The notes under the pieces: generated by a model
Told to the model about the DNA's origin: nothing
Database searches by the model: none
What the model saw: the letters and a program-made list of their open reading frames with translations, nothing else
From: Plantactinospora sp. BC1
Lineage (GTDB): Bacteria > Actinomycetota > Actinomycetes > Mycobacteriales > Micromonosporaceae
NCBI RefSeq assembly: GCF_003030345.1
Contig: NZ_CP028158.1
Span: 5,270,001 to 5,334,000 of the forward strand
Length of the DNA: 64,000 bases
Direction of reading: 5' to 3'
Position numbers and translations under genes: made by a program
In this document: piece after piece, positions 27,778-36,761 of the stretch
Position numbering within the stretch: position 1 is the stretch's first letter
Layout of the letters: each line of letters opens with the position of its first letter

Positions 27778-28712
27778 CCGAAATGCTCCCCACCGGCGAC
27801 CCGTACGCCCCGGGCCCAGTCCGGCGCCGGCATGGCGCGCTTGCCCGCCGCGCGTACCTCGCCCAACTCCACCGCAGTGGTGGCGGTACCGGCCAGCACC
27901 CGGCCGCGCTCGACCAGCAACTCGCCGGGCTTGAGTTCCGGTGCGTTGCCGACCGGCCGCACCGGGCCGAGCTTGACCCGGTCGCCCCGGAACCGGGTCC
28001 AGGCGCCGGGGGCCGGGGTGGCGGCCCGGATCCGCCGGTCCACCGCGAAGGACGGCTCCGACCAGCGCACCTCACCGTCGGCGACGGTCAGCTTCGGCGC
28101 CAGCGAGACCCCGTCGGCGGGTTGCGGCACCGCGTGCGCGGTCCCCTGCCCGATCGCGTCCAGCACGGCGACCAGCAGGCCACTGCCGCTGGCGGCGAGG
28201 CGTTCCAGCAGGTCACCGGCGGTGTCGGAGGGCCGGATCTCCTCGGTCACGGTGCCGAAGACCGGCCCGGTGTCCAGCCCGGCCTCCAGTTGGAAGACGC
28301 TGGCGCCGGTGACCTGGTCGCCGTGCAGCACCGCGTGTTGCACCGGCGCAGCACCGCGCCAGGCGGGCAGCAGCGAGAAGTGCAGGTTGACCCAGCCGTA
28401 CGCCGGGATCTCCAGCGCCTCCGGTGGCACCAGCGCGCCGTAGGCGACCACCGGTACGCAGTCGGGGGCGAGTTGGCGCAGCCGGTCGAGGAACTCCGGC
28501 TCCCGGGGCCTGGCCGGGGTCAGCACCTCGATGCCACGCTCGTCGGCCCAGGCACCCACGGGGGACCGGGCCAGTCCCCTGCCGCGACCGGCCGGGGCGT
28601 CCGGCCGGGTCACCACGGCCAGCAGTTCGTGCCCGGAGGCGGCGATGGCGTCCAGGCTGGGCAGGGCGACGGCCGGCGTACCGGCGAAGATCAGGCGCAC
28701 CGGCCGGGTCAC
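27774..28712 (-). CDS. fmt: Methionyl-tRNA formyltransferase
   Basis: Fmt formylates the initiator methionyl-tRNA with 10-formyltetrahydrofolate. The protein has 312 residues. The N-terminal Rossmann-type domain has [16 protein letters not shown] (8-23) and a catalytic region with [19 protein letters not shown] (about 109-127, Asn/His active site). The C-terminal OB-fold domain follows from about 205. GTG start overlaps the def stop and its own stop overlaps rsmB, so def-fmt-rsmB is one coupled operon. Confidence 0.98.
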
Positions 28713-29329
28713 CGACCCAGGCCGAACGGGCTGGCGGGGCGGTCCGAGCCGCCCAGACCCAGCTTGGCGGCCAGGCCCTGGCGCCGGTCGGCCGGCGGGT
28801 CGTGCGGGCTGACCTTGATCACCGGCGGGGCGTCCTGGTCGTACCAGTCCGCCTGCCGGATCGCCTTCATCGCCTCCTTGCGCCCCTCGGCGTCGAGGCG
28901 GTCGAGGAAGAGCACCCCGTCGAGGTGGTCGGTCTCGTGCTGCACGCAGCGGGCCATCAGGCCGGTGCCGACGATCTGCATCGGGTCGCCGTACTCGTTG
29001 AAGCCCTTGGCGATCACGTTGAGCCGGCGCTTGGTGTCGAAGTAGAGCCCGGGGATGGAGAGGCAGCCCTCGGGACCGTCCTGCTCGTCGGAGTCGGGGA
29101 ACTCAAGTACCGGGTTGACCAGGTGTCCGAGCACGTCGTCGACGTCGAAGGCGAACACCCGCAGGCCCACGCCGAGCTGCGGCGCGGCCAGGCCGGCGCC
29201 GTTCTGCTCCCGCATCGTGTCGGTCAGGTCGGCGACCAGTTTGCGCAGCTCGGCGTCGAAGTCGACGACCGGTTCGGCCGGGGTGCGCAGCACCGGGTCC
29301 CCGAAGAGACGGATGGGCTGGACGGTCAC
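28709..29329 (-). CDS. def: Peptide deformylase
   Basis: Def removes the N-formyl group that Fmt introduces. The three metal-site motifs are present: [10 protein letters not shown] (about 43-52), EGCLSIPG (about 87-94) and QHETDHLDG (about 130-138). The 206-residue length includes a C-terminal extension ([16 protein letters not shown]) common in actinomycetes. The GTG start is preferred to an ATG 18 bases upstream because that ATG lies directly against AAGGAG, which is correctly placed as the ribosome binding site for the GTG. The usual N-terminus ([13 protein letters not shown]) also begins there. Confidence 0.97.
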
Positions 29330-29448
29330 GCGGGACGGCTCCTTCACGGATGGGATCGGTGGTGCCGTACCCAGTCTACGGGCGGGCGAGGGGGACGACC
29401 GGTGCGCCGGGACCGGCGGGTGCGAGGGGCCGGGTACGGTGCGAGCCG

Positions 29449-29521: not shown

Positions 29522-30505
29522 TCAGGGTTGGGTGCCCGGCTCGCCGGCCAGTACGGCGTCGGTGCGCTCCAGGATGTGCTCGGGGAGCGGGAGCTGCGTG
29601 CCGTGCGCGGCGTCCCAGTCGTAGATCACGCTCAGCCCGACCTCGGCCCGGAAGTACTCGATCGCGCTGAGCCCGCCGACCACCTGCTCGTCGCACTCGG
29701 CGACGAGTTCCCCCGGCACCAGCTTGAAGCCGTTGCGCAGCGCCGCGCTGAGCCGGCGGTGCCCGTCGACCACGAAGAACTTCTCGCCGGTGTAGCCGAT
29801 CCGCAGCGGCTCCAGCGCCTCCTCGCCGGCCTGCCCGACCTGGGCGACGAAGTCCGACTCCCAGAGGCCGCGCAGTCCCTGGACCTCCTGGGTGGGGTAG
29901 ATCCGGGCCGGGTCGAGCAGCAGCAGCGGCGGGGAGTCCCGAAGGATCTCCTGGCCGAAGGAGCCCTCGTAGGCGGCGATGACGTGCTCGACCACCTCGA
30001 CCGCCGACGCCTTGGTGGTGTCGCAGATGAGGTCGTAGTTGCGCAGCTTCGCCTTGTCGACGCCGTACCGGACCAGGAAGCGGTTCCGCTCGCTCTCGCT
30101 GCGTTCGTGCAGCTTGGCGCGGGCCTCCTCGATCGAGGTGTAGCTCTCCGCCGGCCCGGAGGGCCGGGCGAGCACCCGGCGTGCCGCCTCGGTCGGCTCG
30201 GTAATCATATGGATCTTGAGCGCGTTCTTGAAGAAGTGCCAGGCGAGCCGGCTGTCGACGATCAACTGCTCGCCGGAGTCGGCGATGTCCTGCTGGAGCT
30301 GGTCGACGTAGCCGTCGACCGCCTGGTCCAGCTCGGCGTGCAGGTTGAGCTGGAGCGCGGTCATCTTGCGCTGCTGGGCCATCTCCCGATAGAGGTCGCC
30401 GACGCTGACCCGGCGCAGCCCGAGCCGTTTGGCCAGCTCGATGGAGACGGTGCTCTTACCGCTGCCAAGGTCACCGTTCAGGACGATCGACTGCCGACCG
30501 GTCAC
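29522..30505 (-). CDS. Cytidylate-kinase-like P-loop protein fused to a ParB/Srx-like domain
   Basis: The 327-residue protein has two parts. Residues 1-180 resemble a CMP-kinase-like P-loop NTPase: GDLGSGKSTV at 11-20, then a DSRLAWHFF segment and a RNRFLVRYGVD helix in the places expected for the NMP-binding and lid regions. Residues 190-325 resemble the ParB N-terminal/sulfiredoxin fold: LLLDPARIYPTQEVQGLR, then the hallmark VVDGHRRLSAALRNG near 248-262. Several ParB/Srx proteins bind or hydrolyse nucleotides, and SerK phosphorylates free serine, so an enzyme rather than a DNA-binding role is conceivable. It lies alone between def and priA, with terminator-like hairpins on each side. The function is unknown. 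Confidence 0.8.
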   Translation of the reverse strand: MTGRQSIVLNGDLGSGKSTVSIELAKRLGLRRVSVGDLYREMAQQRKMTALQLNLHAELDQAVDGYVDQLQQDIADSGEQLIVDSRLAWHFFKNALKIHMITEPTEAARRVLARPSGPAESYTSIEEARAKLHERSESERNRFLVRYGVDKAKLRNYDLICDTTKASAVEVVEHVIAAYEGSFGQEILRDSPPLLLLDPARIYPTQEVQGLRGLWESDFVAQVGQAGEEALEPLRIGYTGEKFFVVDGHRRLSAALRNGFKLVPGELVAECDEQVVGGLSAIEYFRAEVGLSVIYDWDAAHGTQLPLPEHILERTDAVLAGEPGTQP

Positions 30506-30739: not shown

Positions 30740-32935
30740 TCAGAAGATGTCCTGCGGGTCGACCTGGACCCGGACCGGCTGGCCGGCCTTGCGGGCCGTG
30801 CGGAGCGCCGCCGCCTCGTGCAGGGCGGTCGCCAGCGCGGCGGCCTGGGACCGGGGCACCCGGATCAGCATCCGCTCCTGCCCCTCCGGGGCCGGCACCG
30901 GGCCGAGCACCTCGGCGGCCGGCGGCAGCCGGGCCTCGTCCAGCAGCTCCGCCACCGCCGTCGCCACCCCGGTCAGGCTGGCCATCCGGGCCGCCGGCGG
31001 AAAGCCCAGCTCCCGCCGCTCGGCCAGCTCCCGGCCGGCGAACCAACCGGGATCCCAGCGCAGCAGCGCCTGCACCGGCGCCAGCGACCCGTCCGCGACC
31101 ACCACCACCCGGCCGCCGGCCGCACCGGGCCGGGCCAGCGCCGCCGCCGCCAGCCAGCGACGCAGCGCCTCCTCCCCGGCCCGCAGGTCCGCCCGGGTCA
31201 GCAGCGCCCAGGAGTCCAGCAGCAGCACCGCGCCGTAGCCGCCGTCGGCCACCGGCTCGGCGCCGGGCGTCGCGATCACCAGGCCCGCGTCACCGGGCAC
31301 CGAACGCAGCACCTCCTCCCGGCCCGAGGTCCGCACCGGCACGCCCGGAAACGCCCGGCCCAGCTCCTCGGCGGTACGCCGGGCACCCACCACCGCCGCC
31401 CGGAGCCGGTGCCCGCCGCACTGCGGGCAGGAGTATCCGGCGGTCACCCGGGCGCACCACCGGCAGGCCGGAGTCGCGCTGGCCGAGCGCAGGGCGAGCG
31501 GGCCGGAGCAGTGCGGGCACCGGGCCGGCGCCCGGCACTGCGCGCAGGCCACCGCCGGCAGATAGCCGCGCCGGGGCACCTGGACGAGTACCGGCGCGTC
31601 GGCCTTCAACGCCGCCCGGGCCGCGTCCCAGGCCAGGCTCGGCAGCCGGGCCGAGGCCGCGGCGGGGTCCCGGGCCAACTGCGGGTCGTCGCCGGTCGGG
31701 GTGATCCTCGGGGTACGCGCCCGCAGCGTCGCCCGGTCGGCCACGATCTCCCGTGCCCACCCCGTCTCGACGAGCAGCCGCGACTCGGCGGTGCGGGCGT
31801 ACCCGCCGACCAGCACCGCGGCGTCACCGAGCCGCGCCCGGGTGAGCAGCACCTCCCGGGCGTGCGGGTACGGCGCCCGGGGCTCGGCGTGCAGGTCGTC
31901 GCCGTCGTCCCAGATCGCCACCAGCCCGAGGTCGGCGACCGGGGCGAACATCGCGGCCCGGGTACCGATCACGACCGGTACCCGGCCCCGGCAGGCCGCG
32001 AGGAAGGCCCGGTACCGCCGCGCCGGCCCGAGTGCCGCCGAGAGCGCCACGTGCCGCCCGGCGCCGAGCAGCCCGGTCAGCGCGGCGTCGAGTCGTTCGA
32101 GGTCCCGGGCGTCGGCCACCACCGCCACCACGCCCCGGCCGCCGCGTACGGTCGCCGCCGCCGCCTCCGCGAACCGGGTCGCCCAGTCCTCGCCGGGCAG
32201 CGCCGACCAGACCGCCCGGGGTGCCCGGCCGTCGGCCAGGGCCCGCAGGAACCCGGGTCCGGCCGGATAGCTCCGCCAGCCCGCCTCGACAGGTCCGTCG
32301 GCACCGACCAGCCCCTCGGTACCGTTCGTGACCGCTCCGGCCAGCCCTTCGGAGCCCTCGGAAACCGCTCCGGCCGCCCCCTCGCTGACGTCCGGGACCG
32401 CTCCGACCGCCCTCTCGGGACCGTCTGCGGCCAGTCCGGCCGGCCCCTCGGGACCCGCCGAAACCGCTCCGGCCAGCGCCTCGGGACCGTCCGGAACGGG
32501 TCCGGTCGGTGTCGCCGCGGCCGCTGCGGGTTCCGGTCCGGTCTCGTCCGCCGCCGGTACCGACTCCGTCGCCGGGTGGGTGCCGGTCGGTGGGGGCGGC
32601 GCGGTGGGCGGGGCGGCCTCGCGCTCGACCCGGGCGTGCCGGGGCGGGACGGCCAGCCGCAGCACGTCGGCGAGGTTGCCGGCGTACCGGTCGGCGACCG
32701 CCCGGGCCAGCCGGGCGATCTCCGGGGTCAGCACCGGCTCGGGCGAGACGACCCGCTCCAGGTAGCTCAGCCGGCCCTCGTGGGCGGAGAGTTCGGCCCG
32801 GTCCAGCAACCAGCCGTCGACGAGCTGGCCGGCGAACCGCACCCGCACCCGGGTGCCCGGCCGGGCCTGGTCGGCGAGGTCGGCCGGGACCAGATAGTCG
32901 AAGGGCCGGTCCAGGTGCGCCAGCGGCACGTCCAC
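30740..32935 (-). CDS. priA: Primosomal protein N' (PriA-like), ATPase motifs lost
   Basis: This is the actinobacterial form of the replication restart protein. The DNA-binding N-terminal domain (VPLAHLDRPFDYLVPADLAD) and the zinc-binding cysteine pairs (CAQC, CPHC, CRWC, CPQC at about 474-513) are kept. The helicase Walker A (GxTGSGKT in E. coli) is replaced by SALPGEDWATRFAEAA, and the DEEH box by IWDDGDDLH. It is therefore predicted to bind DNA but not to unwind it, as is known for this lineage. A Pro/Ala/Glu-rich insert of about 110 residues (near 105-220) repeats GPEGLAGAV-type units. The GTG used has no ribosome binding site, and homologous residues (LPVARV) appear to extend upstream of it through a strong hairpin towards the metK stop. 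Confidence 0.9.
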   Translation of the reverse strand: MDVPLAHLDRPFDYLVPADLADQARPGTRVRVRFAGQLVDGWLLDRAELSAHEGRLSYLERVVSPEPVLTPEIARLARAVADRYAGNLADVLRLAVPPRHARVEREAAPPTAPPPPTGTHPATESVPAADETGPEPAAAAATPTGPVPDGPEALAGAVSAGPEGPAGLAADGPERAVGAVPDVSEGAAGAVSEGSEGLAGAVTNGTEGLVGADGPVEAGWRSYPAGPGFLRALADGRAPRAVWSALPGEDWATRFAEAAAATVRGGRGVVAVVADARDLERLDAALTGLLGAGRHVALSAALGPARRYRAFLAACRGRVPVVIGTRAAMFAPVADLGLVAIWDDGDDLHAEPRAPYPHAREVLLTRARLGDAAVLVGGYARTAESRLLVETGWAREIVADRATLRARTPRITPTGDDPQLARDPAAASARLPSLAWDAARAALKADAPVLVQVPRRGYLPAVACAQCRAPARCPHCSGPLALRSASATPACRWCARVTAGYSCPQCGGHRLRAAVVGARRTAEELGRAFPGVPVRTSGREEVLRSVPGDAGLVIATPGAEPVADGGYGAVLLLDSWALLTRADLRAGEEALRRWLAAAALARPGAAGGRVVVVADGSLAPVQALLRWDPGWFAGRELAERRELGFPPAARMASLTGVATAVAELLDEARLPPAAEVLGPVPAPEGQERMLIRVPRSQAAALATALHEAAALRTARKAGQPVRVQVDPQDIF

Positions 32936-35504: not shown

Positions 35505-35768
35505 CTACGGCTGGTCGGTCGGCTCGGCGGTGAGCAGACCGGCGTTGATCTCCCGCATCGCGATCGAGAGCGGCTTCTCCTGCGGAGTGGTCTCCACCAG
35601 CGGGCCGACGTACTCCAGCAGGCCCTCGCCGAGCTGGCTGTAGTAGGCGTTCACCTGGCGGGCGCGCTTGGCGGCGAAGATCACCAGAGCGTACTTCGAG
35701 GTGGTCTTCTCGAGCAGCTCGTCGATCGGCGGGTTGGTGATGCCTTCGGGACTGGCGATGGATCCCAC
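35505..35768 (-). CDS. rpoZ: RNA polymerase omega subunit
   Basis: Omega is a small structural subunit that assists assembly of beta prime. The 87-residue protein has the conserved [20 protein letters not shown] (10-29) and [14 protein letters not shown] (30-43), and ends in a flexible acidic tail. It sits between gmk and coaBC as in most actinobacterial genomes. Confidence 0.98.
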
Positions 35769-35904: not shown

Positions 35905-36417
35905 TCAGGTCGGCGTCAGAAAGGACGAACCGAGCAAGCTTACCAGTTCGTCCGCAGCACGCCCGAGCACGTCGTTCACGACCGTGGCGTCGAATTCGCG
36001 ACCGGCGGCGTGCGCGTCCGACCGGGTCGGAGCCAGGTAGACCAGCCGGGCCTGCGGCATCGCCGCCCGTACCTGGTACGCGCCGCGCAGGTCGATCGGG
36101 AGCAGCACGGGTTGGCCGGCCGACAGCCGGGTCCGTACCGGCTCGCGGGGCGTGCCGTACCGGTGGACGCCGATCTCCGACCACTCCAGCAACTCTCCGC
36201 CGTCGAGCAGCCGGGCGAATTCGGTCCGGTCCAGGAAGCGGTAGTGCACCCCGTCGATCTCGTACCGCCGACGGGGGCGGGTGGTCACCGGGACCGGGAG
36301 CCACAACCGGGGCGACCGGGACCGGACAAGTTCCGTCACGCTGTCCTTGCCGGCCCCGGAGGGACCGGCAAGGACCGTGAGACGAGCCGCTGGGCGGACA
36401 TCGTCATGCGTACCCAC
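35905..36417 (-). CDS. gmk: Guanylate kinase, shortened, lid region missing
   Basis: Gmk phosphorylates GMP to GDP. The 170-residue product keeps the P-loop GPSGAGKD (18-25), the GMP-binding TTRPRRRYEIDGVHYRFLDR segment (45-64) and EIGVHRYGTPREPV (81-94). The segment between VYLAPTRSD and EFDATVVND (residues 127-147) is only about four to ten residues long. In typical enzymes roughly 25-30 residues here form the ATP lid with its conserved arginines. The frame is clean through the junction, so this is a real shortening and not a frameshift. The locus order mihF-gmk-rpoZ is standard. Activity may be reduced, or the lid function replaced. Confidence 0.9.
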   Translation of the reverse strand: MGTHDDVRPAARLTVLAGPSGAGKDSVTELVRSRSPRLWLPVPVTTRPRRRYEIDGVHYRFLDRTEFARLLDGGELLEWSEIGVHRYGTPREPVRTRLSAGQPVLLPIDLRGAYQVRAAMPQARLVYLAPTRSDAHAAGREFDATVVNDVLGRAADELVSLLGSSFLTPT

Positions 36418-36443: not shown

Positions 36444-36761
36444 CTAGTTCGCCGAGAATTCTCCAAGCAGTGCCTTGCGCTGCTGCTCACCGAGGCCACG
36501 GAGGCGACGGCTGTCGGCGATCTTGAGCTTCTCCATGATCTGGGTGGCCCGGATCTTGCCGATTCCCGGCATGGCCTGAAGTACGGCCGATACCTTCAGC
36601 TTGCCGACGACGTCGTCCGACTCCGCACGGTCGAGGACGGCGGCGAGGTTGGTCTTGCCCTGCTTGAGCTCTTCCTTGAGCTTCGCCCGGGCCTTGCGGA
36701 TCTCCGCGGCCTTCTCCAGCGCGGCTGCGCGCTGTTCGGGGCTCAGTTGGGGGAGCGGCAC
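36444..36761 (-). CDS. mihF: Integration host factor, actinobacterial type (mIHF/sIHF)
   Basis: This is a nucleoid-associated protein unrelated to enterobacterial IHF. The 105-residue basic protein has a helical N-terminal part (AALEKAAEIRKARAKLKEEL) and a helix-two-turn-helix DNA-binding part containing the diagnostic MPGIGKIRATQIMEKLKI (about 64-81), then RRLRGLGEQQRKALL. The ATG is preceded by GAGGAG. The 171 bases upstream, between it and the pyrF stop, probably hold its own promoter. In Streptomyces sIHF affects topology, sporulation and antibiotic production. Confidence 0.98.
   Translation of the reverse strand: MPLPQLSPEQRAAALEKAAEIRKARAKLKEELKQGKTNLAAVLDRAESDDVVGKLKVSAVLQAMPGIGKIRATQIMEKLKIADSRRLRGLGEQQRKALLGEFSAN

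Follow-up and report, generated by a model that had tools for sequence, protein, structure and literature searches.

The guanylate kinase gene (gmk) of Plantactinospora sp. BC1 encodes a short protein that lacks the ATP lid, and comparison across Micromonosporaceae suggests that Gmk was probably displaced by a non-orthologous enzyme, protein K, as the replacement GMP kinase. The gene for K lies 5.4 kb from gmk in the window, which is the whole stretch of 64,000 nucleotides analysed here (positions 5,270,001 to 5,334,000 of contig NZ_CP028158.1). The fuller reading, in which a hitherto unrecognised GMP kinase, of the archaeal CMP kinase type and fused to a ParB/sulfiredoxin-like domain, repeatedly displaced Gmk, is slightly favoured here; it would make K a candidate lead to the archaeal GMP kinase gene, and nucleotide-sensing control would be possible. 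The conversion of GMP to GDP is the step that all guanine nucleotides pass through. The abstract of PMC5686395 presents Gmk as an essential, conserved enzyme.

The features of the gmk locus in the window were as follows:

35905..36417, minus strand: lid-less gmk homologue, 170 aa, GTG start, the only PF00625 protein of the genome
36340..36366, minus strand: P-loop GPSGAGKDS of the short Gmk, with the Walker lysine present in Plantactinospora
36289..36291, minus strand: Pro43 of the short Gmk, at the yeast Ser34 position (S34P; hinge/guanine site)
35998..36027, minus strand: deletion junction TRSDAHAAGR in the short Gmk, 10 residues against 36 in full-length relatives
36444..36761, minus strand: mihF, actinobacterial integration host factor and upstream neighbour of gmk, by profile match
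35505..35768, minus strand: rpoZ, downstream neighbour of gmk, by profile match

The gene order was mihF - gmk - rpoZ - coaBC - metK and then priA, the last three by presumed identity. The order from mihF to metK is the usual actinobacterial place for gmk, in agreement with the original prediction, which had been made for this gene from the DNA letters. The Pfam Guanylate_kin profile (PF00625) covered the short Gmk over profile positions 2-125 of 182 only, and TIGR03263 gave 132.4 bits against a cut-off of 160.45 with a match to positions 2-123 of 180 only, which places the protein below the full-length level. The LAP-to-EFD distance was 10 residues in the window's Gmk compared to 36 in full-length family members, showing that approximately 26 residues were missing, and the missing segment is the ATP lid with its yeast Arg131, Arg135 and Arg146 positions. 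The short gene was in an open frame in all seven Plantactinospora genomes searched and its product was exactly 170 aa in all ten copies measured, so the deletion is neither chance nor an assembly slip. A lid segment missing from an intact reading frame, as first reported, was thus confirmed as an in-frame deletion. In addition, the second gmk-like gene that the original prediction had proposed to look for was not found by a PF00625 search of the complete single-contig 8.33-Mb genome. The other PF00625 matches in this genome at E ≤ 10 were four in number, short and at the P-loop, with 11.5-12.5 bits against a cut-off of 25.2. Overall, the Plantactinospora short form shares with known Gmk (EC 2.7.4.8) the locus, the P-loop, the core strands and Arg38, Arg41, Tyr50, Glu69 and Tyr78, but differs in the absent lid with its three arginines, in the replacement of Ser34 by Pro and in scoring below the TIGR03263 cut-off.

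The catalytic residues were compared in an alignment of 118 distinct family Gmk proteins (49 full-length and 69 short) with yeast Gmk for numbering. The residue counts were taken from rows matched by a simple sequence pattern; copies with frameshifts or strong divergence (G026, G065, G112, G315 and G321 among them) were read separately. Lys14, Ser34, Arg38, Arg41, Tyr50, Glu69, Tyr78 and the lid arginines 131, 135 and 146 were present in all 49 full-length rows. The lid arginines were gaps in all 69 short rows, the window included, and Ser34 was replaced in all 69, by Pro in the window and in all seven distinct Plantactinospora rows and by Pro (30), Ala (15), Thr (7) or Val (6) in the 58 Micromonospora rows. 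The short Gmk of Plantactinospora retained the Walker lysine K14 and the GMP phosphate ligands R38, R41, Y50 and Y78 in 7/7 rows, and Glu69 was likewise retained. The early claim of a preserved P-loop and GMP site was therefore correct for the Walker lysine and the phosphate ligands but not for Ser34, which is Pro. In the Micromonospora short Gmk the Walker lysine was gone (58/58 rows), Tyr50 had become Arg (58/58) and Tyr78 had become Arg (56/58). The yeast mutant structure 4f4j reads SVPSTTR where the window's Gmk reads PVPVTTR. Passages of an eLife study (PMC4718807; structure 4f4j) report that S34P, s36P in the numbering of that study, abolished yeast Gmk activity. The Ser34 change and the loss of the lid arginines suggest that the short form does not work as a normal GMP kinase, and they argue strongly that it is probably inactive.

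The Mg-ligand Ser of the P-loop (GKS) was Asp in 46 of the 49 full-length family rows and Gly in the other three, with L032 and L344 among the full-length loci altered at this residue, and it was Asp in the window too. The change, an unusual one, predates the lid loss and may have predisposed Micromonosporaceae to lose Gmk. The GKD P-loop was rejected as a correlate of the lid deletion because it occurred in those 46 full-length rows as well.

Among 300 Micromonosporaceae genomes, Gmk scored above the TIGR03263 cut-off in 165, gave a lower match only in 125 and gave no match in 10. The short form was common to Plantactinospora (g1), Micromonospora with Salinispora (within g4, which also holds Verrucosispora) and several sister genera; the labels g1 and g4 were assigned by nearest named sequences, and g66 is Dactylosporangium. 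By K sequence, the named genomes nearest to that of the window were those of Plantactinospora. The deletion described by the original prediction as lineage-specific is therefore real but not confined to this genome, and the Micromonosporaceae alignment showed the short form to be common within the family, a result which that prediction had itself named as one that would count against it. No Gmk match was found in any of the seven Dactylosporangium genomes sampled. Their locus showed mihF, then intergenic DNA and then rpoZ, with no Gmk frame seen (the contig of G073 ended too early), and PF00625 at E ≤ 10 in three Dactylosporangium genomes produced sub-cut-off matches only, with little beyond the P-loop. 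Two Micromonospora genomes of g4 (G315 and G321) had only broken gmk remnants, and a script-based frame search found no proper Gmk frame in Salinispora vitiensis (L265). With Dactylosporangium lacking gmk and the two Micromonospora carrying broken remnants, the description of gmk as an essential gene probably no longer holds.

Three further genomes had unusual Gmk genes. The Gmk of G112 (g12) scored 153 bits, below the cut-off, with a P-loop Gly replaced by Ala (GPSGAAKSS) and a scrambled, proline-bearing lid; this full-length protein (L315), which is counted here among the decays, nonetheless filled all catalytic columns in the alignment and, by its sequence, is possibly at an early stage of decay. 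G007, which is without K, had a one-base frameshift in the P-loop region of Gmk (L364, ~2900-2960) in a gene otherwise normal, and G086, also without K, had Gmk split by a single frameshift further on (L316, L318) with both halves otherwise normal. Both frameshifts are likely sequencing errors; were they real, Gmk would have decayed in two genomes that have no K.

Selection on the short protein was estimated as pairwise Nei-Gojobori medians, which are not tree-based. The dN/dS of the short Gmk was 0.27 in Plantactinospora and 0.46 in Micromonospora, compared to 0.23 for full-length Gmk and to about 0.04 or less for mihF and rpoZ in Micromonospora. The Micromonospora short Gmk measured 177 aa in 52 of 59 copies. 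Some purifying selection thus acts on the short Gmk, which may for this reason keep some function. A tentative reading of the dN/dS below 1 and of the fixed length in both genera is that the short protein persists as a pseudoenzyme and has acquired a new role in binding, like the MAGUK GK domains; this reading is an addition to the displacement explanation and not a competitor of it. The MAGUK GK domains and GKPID show a parallel loss of catalysis with a Ser to Pro hinge change, and the Ser to Pro pattern is found in MAGUK sequences, whose GK domains keep a lid region. The MAGUK GK arose by duplication beside a working Gmk, whereas in Plantactinospora the sole genomic copy decayed. S34P-type hinge changes are reported in parts of PMC4718807 to have converted a Gmk into a protein-binding domain, which favours a new binding role; the loss of the gene in Dactylosporangium and its breakage in G315 and G321 speak against one.

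Since Gmk is apparently dead, some other enzyme must phosphorylate GMP. Kinase families were searched in 41 genomes (23 Gmk-decayed and 18 intact). A hidden second Gmk was rejected, as PF00625 at E ≤ 10 in 20 genomes produced only extra matches of at most 15.5 bits, which included ABC ATPases, GTPase-like and thymidylate-kinase-like proteins. A thymidylate-kinase paralogue was rejected as well: the divergent second thymidylate-kinase-like gene was found in most decayed genomes and not all, being absent in the decayed G029 and G139 and present in many intact genomes. An adenylate-kinase paralogue was rejected on the single match above the cut-off in the decayed genomes G204, G208, G188, G315 and G319. 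The adenylate-kinase search also turned up, in every one of the 23 decayed genomes, a frame of ~320-400 aa or longer with a weak P-loop match (E 0.002 to 0.03). This was K, and the copy in the window and its surroundings were as follows:

29522..30505, minus strand: K, 327 aa, CMP-kinase-like NMP kinase with a ParB/sulfiredoxin-fold domain, candidate GMP kinase
29939..30505, minus strand: kinase domain of K, matching AAA_18/Cytidylate_kin2
30449..30475, minus strand: P-loop GDLGSGKST of K, invariant in 24 aligned family members except S18
29525..29938, minus strand: C-terminal ParB/sulfiredoxin-like domain of K, by structure comparison
30740..32935, minus strand: priA-like gene flanking K, by position and conservation from sequence
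28709..29347, minus strand: def-like gene flanking K on the other side, by position and conservation from sequence

The names priA and def for the flanking genes are presumed. The first 190 residues of K matched AAA_18 with 62.3 bits (cut-off 29.4) and Cytidylate_kin2 with 48.2 bits (cut-off 28), which places K in this NMP kinase superfamily. The archaeal CMP kinase model TIGR02173 gave 88.7 bits, below its equivalog cut-off of 102.1, and K is therefore not a member of that equivalog. An AlphaFold2 model of K (pLDDT 86.2, pTM 0.85) was closest in the PDB to a putative kinase (3hdt_A, Z 18.5), with CMP kinases at Z about 15 (E. coli 1kdo, 15.4); the comparison of the full model tested mainly residues 2-185, and the C-terminal part was compared via its own model. 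A separate model of the last 138 residues (pLDDT 89.1) matched sulfiredoxin 6ky4 with Z 9.3 (88 residues, rmsd 3.0) and ParB 7bnk with Z 8.4. The top rows 1-9 had Z 8.1-9.3 and were mostly ParB, Noc and sulfiredoxin, Z near 8 being modest, and free serine kinase was a lower-ranked match. A Pfam search of the C-terminal domain showed nothing above cut-off, the best being ParBc_2 with 13.8 bits against 23.6 (E 0.04). A regulatory or accessory nucleotide-binding role may be proposed for this domain. The C-terminal model resembles the ParB-N/sulfiredoxin/free serine kinase fold, from which K differs by the fusion to an NMP kinase. The likeness of K to the archaeal-type (d)CMP kinase TIGR02173 consists of the whole-domain match, the SRLA motif, the kinase lid pattern and the CMP kinase fold. 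On the acceptor side, however, K reads DSRLAWHFF where the haloarchaeal CMP kinase reads ESRLAGW, and K is without the RR after the conserved Asp; K also has the extra C-terminal domain, and its host keeps its own bacterial Cmk.

The dN/dS of the K kinase domain, again from pairwise Nei-Gojobori medians, was 0.083 in Plantactinospora and 0.18 in Micromonospora and Dactylosporangium, and the kinase domain is under strong purifying selection. The C-terminal domain was less constrained than the kinase domain, with 0.21 to 0.35. It was shortened or degenerate in several intact-Gmk genomes (e.g. L204-L211), in which the kinase domain was conserved.

K was found in 156 of the 300 Micromonosporaceae genomes, after removal from 162 matches at E ≤ 0.001 of six weak ones taken as other kinases (G033, G082, G089, G116, G178 and G277; E 2.6e-8 to 6.1e-4). 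When the per-genome rows of both searches were combined by hand, K was present in 133 and absent in 2 of the 135 genomes in which Gmk was not intact, and present in 23 and absent in 142 of the 165 genomes with intact Gmk. The two K-less genomes without intact Gmk were G086, with its single frameshift, and G091, which is 77% complete. The 23 intact-Gmk carriers showed that K alone does not force the loss of Gmk. Within g12 (22 genomes), 21 had a normal Gmk and no K, and the sole K carrier was G112 with its sub-cut-off Gmk; within g24, G029 had K and a dead Gmk, and G083 and G102 had a normal Gmk and no K.

Parsimony on a tree built from six genes in 60 genomes gave 6 changes in the state of Gmk and 12 in that of K, with approximately six Gmk decays, all in K-bearing lineages. 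Random independent pairs on supported branches showed K going the same way in 3.2 of 4 and the opposite way never, four pairs being too few for significance (sign test p about 0.25). Three of 394 genomes sampled across the class carried K, all of them Micromonosporaceae. Gmk was above cut-off in 377 of the 394, the three K carriers were among the few below it, and the 11 genomes without any Gmk match were fragmented drafts (40 to 1310 contigs). K lay within the priA-def interval in the window, g1, g4, g11, g21 and g58. In G029 it was directly upstream of pyrF-mihF-gmk, in G115 it was ~20 kb from gmk, and in Dactylosporangium it was at a different site. This patchy distribution and the differing sites suggest several acquisitions.

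Under the displacement explanation, K would have spread patchily through Micromonosporaceae and would have taken over the conversion of GMP to GDP (and the dGMP step) where Gmk decayed. The ancestral Gmk, then freed from selection for catalysis, would have decayed. Ser34 and the lid would have gone first (Plantactinospora and relatives), the Walker lysine and the phosphate-binding tyrosines next in other lineages (Micromonospora), and the whole gene last (Dactylosporangium, some Micromonospora). That K phosphorylates GMP and dGMP is a hypothesis drawn from its co-occurrence, its locus and its family. Against it, K is by sequence closest to CMP kinases and not to GMP kinases, and a gene other than K could track Gmk loss equally well.

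Two further roles for K were considered and rejected. All 42 genomes tested, whether Gmk-decayed or intact, had an ordinary Cmk (TIGR00017) above cut-off, and K is therefore not required for CMP. As a phage gene, K had one weak match in 50,697 phage records and no confirmed relative in viral contigs.

A reading in which K only accompanies the loss of Gmk and has another role, for instance in antiphage or nucleotide-analogue chemistry, is rather unlikely. Gmk would be dead under this reading too, and GMP would be phosphorylated by some other enzyme: a broadened adenylate kinase or thymidylate-kinase paralogue, a kinase driven by polyphosphate, or a protein not yet recognised. The family of K is best known as CMP kinases, K occurs alongside an intact Gmk in the 23 genomes above, and its kinase domain matched the PADLOC pVip-kinase model (2e-23, 81 bits, over model positions 3-174 of 474 only), all of which fits such a role. 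K resembles the prokaryotic viperin-system kinases (pVip-kinase, VakA) in the kinase domain but is fused to a ParB/sulfiredoxin-fold domain instead, and a Pfam search found no radical SAM family, as in the viperin domain, in the K protein. The near-complete match of K to Gmk loss and its place near the Gmk locus in several genera argue against a mere companion. Among the other enzymes, the single adenylate kinase match in five decayed genomes means that no extra copy is needed, and the divergent second thymidylate-kinase gene is missing in two decayed ones. The possibility that the short protein is still a working guanylate kinase, which acts without a lid or receives its arginines in trans, comes near to the original prediction and is very improbable: Plantactinospora keeps the open frame, the Walker lysine, Arg38, Arg41, Tyr50, Glu69 and Tyr78 and a dN/dS close to that of full-length Gmk, but the lid arginines are gone in every short row and the Walker lysine in every Micromonospora row, Dactylosporangium lives without gmk, and S34P is reported to abolish activity in the passages of PMC4718807 on yeast Gmk.

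Should Micromonospora, Salinispora, Plantactinospora and Dactylosporangium, all large genera of antibiotic producers, live without a functional Gmk, their metabolic models and annotations would be wrong, and annotations may mistake the dead gmk for the enzyme. If the displacement explanation is true, K would be a second, unrelated solution for GMP phosphorylation, the Micromonosporaceae genes would form a natural series of an enzyme decaying stepwise after replacement, and the search for the missing archaeal GMP kinase would gain a testable lead in K. A 2014 comparative study (PMC4177761) states, in one of its passages, that the GMP kinase reaction of Archaea is known and the enzyme is not, so that an archaeal-type kinase with this role would have wider interest. 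The open-access papers searched showed nothing on guanylate kinase loss in Micromonospora or Salinispora, and nothing on this case under guanylate kinase displacement or the missing archaeal GMP kinase.

Relatives of K were also seen on plasmids. The Rhodococcus plasmid pDK2 (L214:5809-6897) carries one with the DSRLAWHF motif and a similar C-terminus (46% identity), near genes annotated as a dsRBD-fold protein and a universal stress protein. The Parabacteroides distasonis plasmid NZ_CP143950.1 (L215:4612-9619) carries an operon in which a K-like kinase gene stands with genes for a viperin-like radical SAM protein and a dehydrogenase and with the purine salvage gene hpt. Its kinase shares the DSRLAWHF motif with K, and the operon is possibly a purine-nucleotide analogue pathway.
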